DNA of 64,000 nucleotides. Source: Ascochyta rabiei (Eukaryota > Ascomycota > Dothideomycetes > Pleosporales > Didymellaceae). The notes beneath the pieces were generated by a model. It searched no databases. It was not told the origin of the DNA and was given only the letters and a program-made list of their open reading frames with translations. Location: assembly GCF_004011695.2 (NCBI RefSeq), contig NC_082419.1:1364001-1428000 (forward strand). The letters are read 5' to 3'. The position numbers were made by a program, and so were the translations under genes. This document shows, piece after piece, positions 18,346 through 24,495 of this stretch. The first letter of the stretch is position 1. Each line of letters begins with the position of its first letter.

Positions 18346-19470
18346 GTGCTGGGAAGTTTGTTATTTTGATACTGGTCTTATACCTCAAGGCTTGCAAAGA
18401 GCAAAGGCTTGAAGGGTAGTGTGAACGTTAGGTGTAGAAGGGATAATTGAAACCAGTCTAGCAGGTGTAGGCGTCTGGACACGGTTGATGGATACAATCC
18501 GCAAGACCTCTAAACGATCCACCAATTTCTATATCAGCTTATGAATGGATGCTCTGCATGGTCTGCTAAAAGGCAACCAAACTGAAAAGAAGGCAGAATG
18601 GAGTGTATGGCTAGCTATGCAAGCCACCTGGCCCATCCGACGTCGATTGGACATCGCCCTGCGTCACTTCCGAAATTTTGCGTGCCTCAAAGGCCATTGG
18701 CTATATCCAATCCAGCGCGAGACTGCACAGCCTTTGTTGCACCATCGAAATCTGATCGTGTGTATGAGGAGGATGCTCAAGAATCCCGGTCAAGGAGCTT
18801 AGTTGCAATGCGGCACACGAACATGTCGAAGCCGTCATCAGAAGACTTTCAGCCTTAAAACATACTTGCAAGTGTACGTATGACACGAGATTCCGACTTC
18901 TACAGAGAAAATCGGCGCCACGCATTCCCGATCTAACCTTGCCACCACCCAAACTCTACACCCAAGGACATGCACTGCACCTGATAATTCACAACGACTC
19001 TCTTAACAACCTTGAAAGATCCAATCGCTAGTATATTGAGTAAATCATGTAGCTGTGCCTCAGAGACTTCGTCTCTCAAAGACTTTGTCTCTCAAAGACT
19101 CCGTCTCTGTGCAGATGTAGATGCTGAACGAAAAAGAAGGAAAGAAAAGGACTGGCATAGACCGACCCATCGTAAACGACCATGGCCATTAACAGTAAGT
19201 GCCATCGCATACATAGGGCGGTCTCAGCCCAGAAATACAGTGATTTATCCGAGCCTGTGATCAACTTCCTGCCTCTTCCCTACATTTCGCTGTACGATTG
19301 CTACGCCTCTCTGCTCGCCTACTTTGTCCAGTAAACCAAGCAGCAGCTTTAGAACGCTAGAAGTACAAATGTTATGTACTATGCTGTTGCAAGGTAAATC
19401 CTATTAAATTACTTCTTGTACTTTAAGAAACAGTAGTCCGTTACAACCTACAAACTCTAGTAATTTAAAC
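18346..19470. other. gene-poor intergenic region
   Basis: No gene is supported. The stretch includes a three-copy 16-bp repeat (19062-19110, listed separately) and becomes AT-rich after about 19360, leading into the VTC-derived array. Confidence 0.5.
19062..19110. repeat. 16-bp repeat, three copies (CAAAGACTTTGTCTCT type)
   Basis: Three tandem units vary as CAGAGACTTCGTCTCT, CAAAGACTTTGTCTCT and CAAAGACTCCGTCTCT. Each unit is itself nearly palindromic (AGAC...GTCT). The size and symmetry suggest a small hairpin-forming repeat of unknown origin. Confidence 0.75.
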
Positions 19471-19474
19471 TCTA

Positions 19475-20690
19475 GCCTACTTACACCATCCTAAACACTA
19501 AGTATACATCCTACTTCACTCTTTAAACCCTTACTTTATCTATTTGTGGAAGCAAAAGACTAGCCTCTTGCTCCGCGAATAAGTAGGTATTTACTGCGAC
19601 ACTAATTAACTCTACTATATACTAATAAGTAGGCTACTATAGTACTATAAATAACACAAGTAAGGTATACATCTAACGCAATCTCTAAACCCTTAGCTTA
19701 ACCTACTTAGTGCTAAATAATGCGTTCCTAACTACGCCTATAAGCCTATGCTTGTGCTTACAGCCCTGCTAAATAAGGGTATAGTACTTAAATATAAAGC
19801 TAAGATATAGAGTTACTATAAGTCCTAGTATAATAATAAGTAGGCTACTATAGTACTATAAATAACACAAGTAAGGTGTATATCTAACGCAATCTCTAAA
19901 CCCTTAGCTTAACCTGCTTACTGCTAAATAATACGTTCCTAACTATGCCTGTAAGCCTATACTTATGCTTATAGCCCTACTAAATAAGGGTATAGTACTT
20001 AAATATAAAGCTAAGACATAGAGTAACTATAAGTCCTAGTATAATAATAAGTAGGCTACTATAGTACTATAAATAACACAAGTAAGGTATATATCTAACG
20101 CAATCTCTAAACCCTTAGCTTAACCTGCTTAGTGCTAAATAATGCGTTCCTAACTATGCCTATAAGCCTATGCTTATACTTATAGCCCTACTAGATAAGG
20201 GTATAGTACTTAAACACAAAGCTAAGACATAGAGTAACTATAATCCTAGTATAATAATAAGTAGGCTACTATAGTACTATAAACAACATAAGTAAGGTGT
20301 ATATCTAACGCAATCTCTAAACCCTTAGCTTAACCTACTTAGTGCTAAACAACATGTTTCTAACTATGCCTATAAGCCTGTACTTATACTTACAGCCCTA
20401 CTAAATAAGAGTATAGTACTTAAATGTAAAGCTAAGATATAGAGTAACTATAATCCTAGTATAATAATAAGTAGGCTACTATAGTACTATAAATAACACA
20501 AGTAAGGTGTACATCTAACGCAATCTCTAAACCCTTAGCTCAACCTGCTCACTGCTGAACGACGCGTTCCCAACCACGCCCGCAAGCCCGTGCTCGTGCT
20601 CGCGGCCCTGCTGAACAAGGGCATGGTACTTGAACGCGAAGTTGAGACACAGGGCGACAGCAAGTCCCAGCGCAACGACGAGCGGGCCGG
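19475..20690. repeat. tandem array of ~211-bp units derived from the VTC gene 3' end, RIP-mutated
   Basis: The landmark TAGGCTACTATAGTACTATA starts at 19630, 19841, 20052, 20262 and 20472, giving periods of 211, 211, 210 and 210 bp. The fifth unit is the living gene: its first 55 bp are the VTC 3' flank and the rest (20527 to about 20690) is the last ~54 codons of VTC, including its final TM helix. In units 1-4 the same bases appear mutated, for example gene CTGCTGAACGACGCG against CTGCTAAATAATGCG-type sequence. Nearly all changes are C to T or G to A; a few are not (a shared T to C and rare transversions). A worn sixth partial unit is visible at about 19475-19560. All coding capacity in units 1-4 is lost. 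Confidence 0.92.
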
Positions 20691-22715
20691 TAAGTGCGTC
20701 AAAGTCCTTGCCGCTGCGCTCGCGGATCAGCTTGCTGCGGTACCAGTACATGCCGTAGCCCCACGCGAGGGTGAAGACGGCGATGGAGGTGTAGACGACG
20801 GCGAGGGCGCGCGCGATGTTGTTGCCCTCGCCGGCGGCGTTGTAGAGGCCGAGGGATAAGCTGGCGAGGAGGACGGAGACGTGCTGCCATTTGATAAAGG
20901 TGCGTTGGTTGGCGAGCCATACCTTGGCTTCGACGCGCAGGGGGCCTTGGTCTTTGATCCAGACGCCGGGGGCGGAGACGCCGGGGGGCAGCTGCACGCG
21001 GCGCTGCTGCTTCTTGGCGTATTTGGAGGTGGAGAAGGAGGGGAAGAGGTTGGCGAGGCGGCTGGATTTGCCGTTGCCGTTGCCGTAGGGTGCGGCCAGG
21101 GCTGTGGTGCCTTCCTCGTCCGAGTCGGGCTCCTCGGCGGCACGCTCTTCCCGGTGCGGATCGAGTCGCGACACAGGGAGACGCGTGGCGGGCATCGAGT
21201 GGGCAGCGGCGCTGGGGGCGACCTGCGCGGCGCTACCTCTCTTAGGAGCCGAGCGAGCTGCGGCCGGCGAGCCGACGGGGGAGGCGACGCCGCGGCGGAA
21301 CGAGGGGCTGGCGGCTGTGCCGAAGAGGGAGCCGACAGCAAACTCGTCCTCGGCGGCCTTGCGTCTGCGCTCCTGCTCGTCGTCAAAGGCCTGCTCGGGC
21401 TCCTTGCGGATGTCGTCCTCGACCTCGCTGAGCCAGAAGGGGAAGGTGTTGACGTTGTCCTCGAACAGCTTGGCGACGCCGTGGACAAACTTTGAAAAGC
21501 GCGGGGCTTCCTTGACGAGGTGCGAGTGGATGAGGTCCTCGACCCACTCGTACTTGTTCAGGCCCTTGACCTTGATCTCGAGCAGGGCAAAGGGGAACTT
21601 GTGGAGCTCGCCCTTCTTGAGCGCCTTGAAGGGGAACTCGAGGTTGCCGGTGTCGATGTCGCGCCTGTGCCAGTCGTCGGGCTCGCGGCACGGGCGGTCC
21701 ATGTCCAGGGCGTCCTCGCGGATCAGGGCGAGGTTGGTGTCGAGCGAGATGCGGACGCTGTCGTTGCCGGGGATCTGGAAGGCGGTGCGCGTGTAGTTTG
21801 CGCGCAGGACGGGCTGCAGGTCCTTCTCCTTGACGAAGCCCTGGATGTCGTCGACGGCGGCCTTGAAGCTGTCGATCTTGGCCTGGTCCCTGTTCGGACG
21901 GTACTCGAGCTTCTCGATGCTCTTCTCCATGTGGTACTTGTCTTCGAGGAAGGGCTGGATGTACTTTGCCTTGATGGGGAAGCGCACCTCCTCGCTGGCG
22001 TTGCCCTCCTTGATGACCTTTTTCTCGAACATGATCTCGGGCTTCTCGTCGAGCTGGCCGTACCAGCGCAGGCGCAGCGACGCGGCATCCTCCTTGCCGT
22101 TGACCTTGTCCGAGTAGAGGGAGAAGTTGGGGTTGTCGAAGTAGATGGAGGTGATGGTGGGGTCGCGCTGGGAGCCCTCTGCGACGTTGGCCGACTGCGG
22201 GTTGTAGACGAGGACGGGCAGGCGGCGGAGGATGACGGTCTTGACTTCGAAGAGGTTGTCCATGTGGACCCAGACTGCGTTGTTAGCGTGGACGACGGAG
22301 TGGTGGGAGGCGGCCTACATTTGTGCGACGTGAAGCCCTCGCCGGTGGTGCTGCCGTCGGAAAAGGACAGGGACTCCTTGGACTTGCCCTCGAGGCTCTG
22401 GCGCACAAACGAGTACAGGGCAGACAGGCGGTACAGCAGCGGCGAGGCGTCCTCGGTGTGCAGCGGGTGGCGGGCAATGCGGGCGTCGATGAAGGGGCGC
22501 AGCTTGTACGACTTGCCGCGCAGCTTGTCGTGCTTCTTGGTGGCCTTGATGATGGCGGTGAAGTTGATGCGGCTGAAGCCCTCGAGCTCCTTGACCTCCT
22601 TGGTGACCTGGTCGAGCTCGAGCAGCACCTCGTTGAGCAGCTTTTCGCGCTCCTCCTGGCTGGGTTCTGCCTCGCCATTCTTGACAGCGTTGTTGTTGTT
22701 GTTGTTGTTGTTGTC

Positions 22716-22762
<47 letters not shown>

Positions 22763-23156
22763 CCTTGTCCTTGTCCTTGTCCTTGCCGTCCTCGTCGTTC
22801 TTGCTGTCCTTGCCCTCTTTACCCTCCTTACCCTCCTTACCCTCCTTGCCCTCCTTACCCTCCTTGCCCTCCTTGCCCTCTGCATCGTCCGCCTTGGCAC
22901 GGACGGCCAACGGCTCGAGTCTCTTCTCGCACTTGGTCGTGCGATCCCTCAGCCGCTGCGCGACGTCGAGGATGAAGCCGTGCACCTTCTCGAGCTGCAC
23001 GTTGGCCAGCTCGTCGACAAACGCGCTCTCGTCCTCGGCCGTCCAGCTGTCGTCGTCCTCGTTGTCCTTGAGCAGCTTCTTCAGCTTGTCGTAGTCGATG
23101 TACTGCGCCTTCCAGGGCGGGTACACGCTCCTGCGGAGGGTGGTGCCGAACTTCAT
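20527..23156 (-). CDS. vacuolar transporter chaperone (VTC) complex subunit, Vtc2/Vtc3-like
   Basis: The protein is 861 aa: exon 1 at 22319-23156, a 44-nt intron at 22275-22318, exon 2 at 20527-22274. The VTC complex makes polyphosphate from ATP and passes it into the vacuole. The N-terminal SPX domain, which senses inositol pyrophosphates, begins MKFGTTLRRSVYPPWKAQYI and ends near YKLRPFIDARI. It is interrupted by low-complexity (KEG)n, Asp/Lys and Asn runs at about residues 95-160. The splice creates HKFWVHMDNLFEVKTVILRR, the start of the VTC central domain. That domain contains LRLRWYGQLDE, FEKK, LQPVLRANYTRTAFQIPG and HSHLVKEAPRFSKFVHGVA. Three TM segments (DUF202-like) close the protein. 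The YPPWKAQYIDYDKLK start and the DIRKEPEQAFDDE region look like Vtc2/3 rather than catalytic Vtc4, but Vtc4 is the alternative. Its 3' end is the parent of the decayed array. Confidence 0.88.
22683..22880. repeat. coding microsatellites inside the VTC gene (Asn run and KEG repeats)
   Basis: A (GTT)n tract with interruptions (about 22690-22757) encodes Asn runs on the minus strand. A following tract near 22764-22790 encodes Lys-Asp repeats, and a 9-bp CCTCCTTAC/CCTCCTTGC repeat (about 22815-22880) encodes eight KEG-type units. All repeat lengths are multiples of three, so the frame is kept. The insert lies within the SPX domain. Confidence 0.85.
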
Positions 23157-24495
23157 GGCGGGCGTGCGTGCGTCTGCGGCGGGGTGTGGCGGGGTGTCGC
23201 TGCGTGGTGCGACGACTGCTGCAGCGTCTGTTGCGTCGTGTATTTGCTGCGCCGTGCATTTGCTGCGGACGTCGGCAGTCGGTTGCCCATGCCTAGGACG
23301 CGAACGTCTAGCGCGCCAGCATCCAACACGGCTCCCCTACAAGCTCCTACAAGCTCCCCTCCAAGCTCCCCTCCAAGCCCCCCTCCAAGCCCCACTCCAA
23401 GCCCCACTCCAAGCTCTACAGACTACAAGGCGCACGAGCTTCAAGTCGACGTGTTGGTGTTGGCGTAGGAGCAGCAGCCAGTAGCAACGACAACGACAAG
23501 AACAGCAGCAACGACAATGGCAAGTGCGATGGCAGAAACACAAGCGTGGGACTCTCCCCCTTCCTTCCTTCCTTCCTTCCTTCTTTTCCATTTCCATTTC
23601 CTTATCCTTCCATCTTATTTCCTTCCTTGGCCTCGTCTTCATTCCCCTGCAAAGCCTTCATGCCTGCAAAGCCTCTACTGCCCAATCCCTGCAATTCGGT
23701 TAGCAGGCCTGCCACGAAAGCTGAGCCAATCAACGATTGCACGTGCCGGCACCTGCCTGCACACGTAAGCACGGGAGGGCCGATGCATGGGGAAAAGCGC
23801 CGGATTCCTGCGTGGGCGGGCGCCGAATCATGACTGGAAGACGAGCCGAGCCCTCCACTTCACTCTCCACGTGCAGATGAGGGTGGGAAGCTTGACTGGG
23901 ATTGGCTTTTTTTTTTCTTTGATGGGTTGGTTGGTTGGTTGTTGGCGGCTGTTGTGCATGTCTGATGGCGGCTGTTGTGCATGTCAATCAACGTCTTGTT
24001 CACGTCAATCAACGTCTTGTTCATATTTATCAATGTCTTAATTATGTGTATTAACTTCTAGTGTATGTTGATTAACATCTTAATTGTGTAAATAAACGTC
24101 TTAATTATATAAATTCACTTCTTATTTATGTGTATTAACTTCTAGTTTATGTTAATAGACGTCTTGTTTATATCTAATAGACATCTTATTTGTGTTAATA
24201 GACGTCTTGTTCACGTCAATGGAGGTCTTGTTCATCTAAATGCCCTTCTTGTTCACGTCAGTTGACGTCTCGATCATGTCAATAGACATCTTGTTTATCC
24301 CAATTAACGTCATATTTACATTTATTTACGTCCTAACTATACTAATTAACGTCTTATTTACATTTATTTACGTCTTAATCATGTTAATAGACGTCTCCAT
24401 CATGTCAATAGACGTCTCCATCACGTTAATAGACGTCTCACGGTATCCTGTCTACGAACACCGTCCATGCACCGCGTTTGAGTAAGCGCTTGCCA
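23157..24495. other. intergenic between VTC (-) and MYND gene (-)
   Basis: No gene is supported in this 1.3 kb. It includes the VTC promoter and three simple repeats. These are a 12-bp AAGCTCCCCTCC-type repeat (about 23336-23420), a CCTT run (about 23561-23583) and the long 21-bp array at 23978-24442 (listed separately). Confidence 0.5.
23978..24442. repeat. 21-bp tandem repeat array with ACGTC core, about 22 units
   Basis: The consensus is close to GTCAATAGACGTCTTGTTCA plus one base. The outer units are the best kept; the middle ones (24020-24170) are AT-shifted. Because 21 is a multiple of three, one frame reads as a seven-residue repeat (for example INVLFTF, IDVSIMS), giving an open frame of 81 codons that I do not consider a gene. 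Most units keep GACGTC or AACGTC. Confidence 0.85.

Follow-up and report, generated by a model that had tools for sequence, protein, structure and literature searches.

The window analysed here, a stretch of 64,000 nucleotides of the Ascochyta rabiei genome, carries on its minus strand a gene for an SPX-VTC-DUF202 protein whose 3' end borders a tandem array of mutated copies of that same end. It is a working phosphate-storage gene of the fungus. The second exon, taken from its first ATG (20527-22263, minus strand), is an open reading frame of 578 aa with Pfam matches to VTC (2.2e-73) and DUF202 (4e-14), and the first exon (22330-23156, minus strand; exon border approximate) contributes the SPX part (Pfam SPX, 6.5e-10). 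The second exon shows 94% identity, at 100% coverage, to a protein of Ascochyta clinopodiicola. Since the top PDB match of this relative was VTC3 (1.7e-133), ahead of VTC4 (2e-90), the gene is of the VTC2/VTC3 type. The VTC domain was found in two strong genes and one weak match in the genome. The end of the gene is conserved with the tails of its orthologues. In several VTC relatives, including P0006 and P0023, the predicted protein continues past the final FK of the membrane part into what looks like an intron; at the same point the gene in the window and several close relatives are contiguous, and an intron loss in the lineage of the window gene is possible.

TRF, applied to the window, reported the array at 19618-20574 with a period of 211, 4.5 copies and 92% matches. 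Aligned in register with the gene end, it resolves into the units u1 (19635-19845, 211 bp), u2 (19846-20056, 211 bp), u3 (20057-20266, 210 bp) and u4 (20267-20476, 210 bp), listed without strand and the latter two with a common 1-bp deletion, followed by u5 (20477-20687), which is the own end of the minus-strand VTC gene. Each unit corresponds to some 52 codons at the end of the gene, its stop codon and a 3' flank of 50 bp. Because u1-u4 contain stops inside their reading and are mutated at every codon position (84/152, 28/72 and 76/148 C/G cells changed at positions 1, 2 and 3, none being spared), we regard them as dead copies. A preliminary description of this DNA had placed the unit landmarks (19630, 19841, 20052, 20262 and 20472) and the minus-strand stop codon (20527-20529) correctly, and its reading of a local partial-gene tandem duplication, with the gene as source of the units, agrees with our results: the gene end matches the orthologues and genome searches found the units nowhere else. 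Other details needed revision. The array had been given a start at 19475, a position that falls in a stretch on the left with weak alignment to the units; u1 begins at 19635. VTC codons, stop and flank are indeed copied, but the flank measures 50 bp instead of 55 bp and the alignment reaches 20687. Finally, the fifth unit had been taken for the intact gene end, which is true from 20541 on: the right part of u5 (20541-20687, minus strand) is the living gene end without depletion of 5'-pyrimidine-C-purine (YCR) sites, whereas its left part (20477-20540, no strand), consisting of 3' flank, stop and last codons, has the mutated form found in u1-u4.

Mutations were counted in the coding-derived part of the units, from 20540, with the VTC gene end as reference and the cells pooled over u1-u4. 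Gene end and units are about 67% identical. Among the substituted cells, 188/201 (93.5%) were C>T or G>A, with 44/48, 48/50, 46/50 and 50/53 body substitutions of this kind in u1, u2, u3 and u4, respectively. The bias, with few other changes, had been noted before, and its share lies above the value of about 90% set beforehand as support for RIP, the homology-triggered C>T mutation. Changes affected CpA in 75/92 and CpG in 103/128 cells, compared to 6/80 for CpC and 4/72 for CpT (CpR 178/220 vs CpY 10/152; Fisher p about 1e-50, with the cells of related units not being independent). The expectation of RIP mainly at CpA is thus borne out for CpA itself, but CpG is equally affected. A pyrimidine 5' of the C was strongly preferred, with 83/84 YCR cells changed vs 95/136 for RCR; by trinucleotide, the counts were 40/40 for YCA, 43/44 for YCG, 35/52 for RCA and 60/84 for RCG where a purine follows the C, and 0/40 for RCC, 0/20 for YCT, 4/52 for RCT and 6/40 for YCC where a pyrimidine does. 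For this fungus, the array thereby reveals a trinucleotide rule, YCR, that is sharply defined. The CpA/TpG depletion and TpA excess that had been proposed as a check were both present in the unit bodies and absent in the gene end, with TpA/ApT of 2.07-2.29 vs 1.00 and (CpA+TpG)/(ApC+GpT) of 0.35-0.50 vs 1.15.

As a control, copies of a DDE_1 transposon from the same genome were compared on both strands with an open-frame copy, at 8 loci of which two (L052 and L055) overlap on one element. In L050, 194/202 substitutions were C>T/G>A, with YCA 98/103, YCG 38/45, RCA 33/75 and RCG 20/63 changed; the corresponding numbers were 341/373, 140/144, 57/62, 63/92 and 52/110 for L051, and 77/80, 46/144, 25/64, 2/93 and 4/109 for L049. 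The longer piece of L052 gave 187/193 C>T/G>A and L056 gave 146/156, the pyrimidine preference fading at saturation in the latter (RCA 24/28), and L053 (264/460) and L054 (230/357) carried more change of other types. RIP-type mutation in this genome has a strong 5'-pyrimidine preference and hits CpG as well as CpA. Transposon copies and array are alike in that YCR is changed well above RCR and CpY remains low. Since the decayed transposon copies share the 5'-pyrimidine preference, we classify the mutation of the array, by its signature, as RIP-type and the array itself as a clear-cut natural example of a process already known. A lightly mutated transposon copy found in a one-strand search (L047) was unlike the array, with CpA 13/237 vs CpG 2/174, so CpA may lead early in mutation. 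The published account of RIP in A. rabiei stresses CpT changes (PMC4835772), and no such pattern was seen in the transposon copies examined here.

The share of C/G lying in YCR was 8716/34761 (25%) in the whole window and 0/269 in u1-u4. The flank of u5 (20477-20540) likewise had 0/21 (p = 0.002, one-sided, vs the window's 0.25), and the gene end (20540-20690) had 23/97 and the rest of the VTC gene 368/1555, 0.237 in both. The longest YCR-free run of the window measured 943 bp (19598-20541) and the runner-up, around a TCT microsatellite, 302 bp. In 80 kb of neighbouring sequence no such run exceeded 113 bp; the 943-bp run thus stays the longest in 144 kb, and the array with the u5 flank and a left shoulder is, besides the microsatellite stretch, the sole long YCR-free domain there. 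YCR depletion is a usable index and should allow RIP tracts only a few hundred bp long to be detected with good sensitivity.

The left shoulder (19340-19634, no strand; edges chosen after looking) is YCR-poor, with 3/78 C/G in YCR outside a dispersed 57-bp element. A local alignment of 19400-19634 to u1 scored 71 vs at most 51 in 500 block shuffles, and the score of a control stretch farther left was reached by 29/500 shuffles. Without the 57-bp element, the score of the shoulder was reached by 0/400 shuffles for u1, u2 and u3 each and by 3/400 for u4. Judged from these alignments, the shoulder is probably an older degenerate unit, or it may reflect a spread of RIP. The 57-bp element itself (19545-19601, no strand) is inserted in the shoulder, outside the array, and occurs with unrelated flanks at 7 places in the genome (including L065-L070). 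It begins with TGT and ends with ACA, and exact 5-bp target-site duplications were present at 4/7 places, the copy in the window matching in 4/5 letters and two copies having none. We take these ends and the duplication to resemble a solo LTR, yet the element is tiny. As RNA it folds better than 199/200 shuffles, and it carries no RIP mutation and lies within the degenerate shoulder. An Rfam search of positions 19000-21000 (E up to 1) and an NCBIfam scan gave no match.

On the 144 kb, TRF listed 20 rows with a length of 121 bp or more, which we grouped by hand into 15 places. At the 14 places other than the 211-bp array, with units of at most 63 bp and rows of at most 386 bp, YCR was retained with the exception of one row; examples are an array with 53-bp units and a length of 290 bp (33/140) and one with 24-bp units and a length of 386 bp (26/95), and the lowest other whole-row value was 9/78. 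The exception (24035-24195, YCR 2/36) lies inside a 21-bp AT-rich array upstream of the VTC gene (23975-24439). As a whole this array is not depleted (29/144), its centre (24033-24206, three tiles) has 2/41 and most of the remainder is not poor, which perhaps reflects light RIP in the centre. Among the tandem arrays in 144 kb, only the 211-bp array is emptied of YCR. This fits a length requirement and bears on the minimum natural repeat length for RIP, for which a single positive array cannot set a limit. In Neurospora assays, a perfectly homologous stretch of 155 bp can set off RIP, and one of 220 bp causes it to a substantial extent (PMC4858203); the unit here has 211 bp and the array about 1 kb.

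Since every unit is mutated at the YCR sites, these sites are uninformative on the order of events, and the history of the units was read from 34 RCR sites. Over the six unit pairs we counted 57 differences vs 86 (sd 6) for independent mutation, and 0/5000 shuffles were as low, by which independent RIP of each unit was rejected. In addition, u1-u4 share a change from Asn to Ser, with Asn present in those orthologue tails that cover the position. Together, these observations suggest that the units share ancestry after their split from the gene, although the common RCR states may in part reflect site susceptibility instead of descent. The pairs differ at 6-12 RCR sites, and u3 and u4, despite their common deletion, differ at 12, the most of any pair. 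Each unit also has private C>T/G>A changes, so RIP wholly before amplification was rejected as well, and much of the RIP must have fallen on an array that already had several units. RIP therefore appears to have acted before and after the last amplification, or homogenisation has blurred the order. The earlier suggestion of RIP on a very short duplication receives, as stated, no support from this mixture of common and private mutations: at least some of the RIP took place on an array about 1 kb in length, where the paired homology could have been several hundred bp, and a first round on a single 211-bp pair is possible.

The mutated domain ends within u5. In 63 bp, the flank of u5 differs from those of u1-u4 at only 1-3 positions per unit; the first intact YCR site is at 20541, and the sequence is clean from there onward, so that the RIP-mutated copies are u1-u4 plus the u5 flank but not the coding part of u5. 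Of the 23 YCR sites that survive in the gene end, 11 are synonymous, and at the 10 of these in the aligned part the units were changed in 40/40 cells (39 C>T/G>A and one G>T). Since the synonymous sites are not depleted, we suggest that the mutated flank was joined to the gene by an exchange, or that mutation was confined by chromatin; both an exchange after RIP and a chromatin edge explain the edge better than protein selection alone. We infer the exchange from one edge in one strain. Before a purine, third-position pyrimidines of the gene end are T in 9/23 cases vs 14/223 in the rest of the exon (p = 4e-5), with 5/20 in another 55-codon stretch of the gene. The G>A counterpart, third-position A after a pyrimidine, was found in 0/9 vs 11/58 cases. 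Given the T excess, freedom from RIP cannot be demonstrated for the gene body. The array prompts one to ask how a gene can outlive RIP directed at its own end. One tentative answer, which we hold to be possible though doubtful, is that RIP destroyed the repeat including the gene end in a sexual cycle and that meiotic exchange with a chromosome bearing an unmutated end restored the gene, so that its 3' flank and the surroundings of the stop stayed RIP-mutated while its coding part is clean. If true, chimeric edges would be a sign that duplications of essential genes can survive RIP, and their number could be compared between genomes. We consider the chimeric edge the most interesting feature of the array.

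Taken together, the likely course of events is a tandem duplication of the gene tail, RIP before and after the last amplification, and an exchange near the stop codon. A tandem duplication would have copied the last ~52 codons, the stop and 50 bp of 3' flank, and amplification, probably through unequal exchange, would have raised the number of extra copies to at least four. RIP of these repeats, some of it before and some of it after the last amplification, would have removed every YCR site from u1-u4 and the u5 flank. Close to the stop codon, either a crossover or a gene conversion would then have linked the mutated flank with an unmutated end of the gene, which at about 67% identity would no longer pair with the units. 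PF00145 matches were found at three places in the genome (contig C10, L006 and L007). The gene on C10, with relatives in Ascochyta, Ophiobolus and Plenodomus (17 matches), is by its motifs presumably a candidate RID-type methyltransferase; also by motifs, we take L007 to be DIM-2-like and L006 to be DNMT5-like.

Premeiotic timing of the mutation is likely but unproven, since a dim2-dependent process has been published for Zymoseptoria in which mitotic C>T changes at CA are promoted by Dim2 (PMC8016269). It is conceivable, if rather unlikely, that slow Dim2-type mutation in heterochromatin over the array produced a domain bounded by chromatin and ending at the start of the transcribed gene, for which an exchange is unneeded. 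The further PF00145 genes of this genome, one of them DIM-2-like, are consistent with such a process, as is the right-hand end of the mutated domain, which falls 150 bp short of the end of the homology (20541 vs 20687). The transposon-like signature cannot separate the two processes because transposons are subject to both. That the nearby tandem arrays are not emptied of YCR speaks, not decisively, for a homology length requirement and hence against the mitotic process.

It is unlikely that RIP struck all copies including the gene and that protein selection alone, with no exchange, kept the gene end clean. Both partners are normally hit by RIP (PMC3017866, PMC10294615), the u5 flank does have the mutated form, and the third-position T excess might be synonymous RIP; lost synonymous sites would escape the count, because only surviving C/G are countable. 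The 11 intact synonymous YCR sites, with change in all corresponding cells of the units, and a YCR density of the gene end equal to that of the remaining gene argue against selection alone. Ordinary CpG methylation decay would account for the many changed CpG cells and is very improbable: CpA is changed too, and 43/64 CpG cells became TpA, for which change on both strands is needed, so decay at CpG only was rejected. An AT-rich satellite captured by, or invading, the VTC gene was rejected with a probability next to nil, as it is favoured by the AT-richness of the units and nothing further found, while the gene end is conserved with orthologues and a search for units elsewhere in the genome, named earlier as the refuting case, placed 5/5 matches inside the array (among the best candidates, which alone are scored).

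The array resembles the RIP of transposons in the same genome in its C>T/G>A changes, in the involvement of CpA and CpG and in the pyrimidine before the C, and differs in its target, which is a tandemly repeated 211-bp segment of a host gene next to the living original. A natural RIP-mutated tandem duplication of Neurospora was reportedly described by Foss et al. in 1991; there, as here, linked natural direct repeats decayed by RIP, but the repeats here derive from part of a protein gene whose parent copy is intact. Stagonospora nodorum belongs to the same order as the host. In this fungus, a 275-bp subtelomeric repeat is RIP-affected, and short rDNA pieces, mostly <300 bp, are not (PMC2621366, PMC3017866). 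In Zymoseptoria tetrads, RIP was seen at LTRs of 200-500 bp, and short repeats in close vicinity were prominent targets (PMC10294615); the mutations there were observed de novo, whereas ours are fossil. The Neurospora assays of short, closely spaced repeats (PMC4858203) are similar in unit length, 155/220 bp there vs 211 bp here, but used engineered pairs and one cross, compared to several natural units near saturation. In listings and abstract openings of the open-access literature, we met no report in which the tail of a host gene forms a tandem array mutated by RIP next to the living parent. That linked duplications undergo RIP in nature is already known, and the host-gene-tail array with its chimeric edge adds to it a natural test object for RIP with an internal reference, in which the same 147 bp are present in one clean and four mutated versions.
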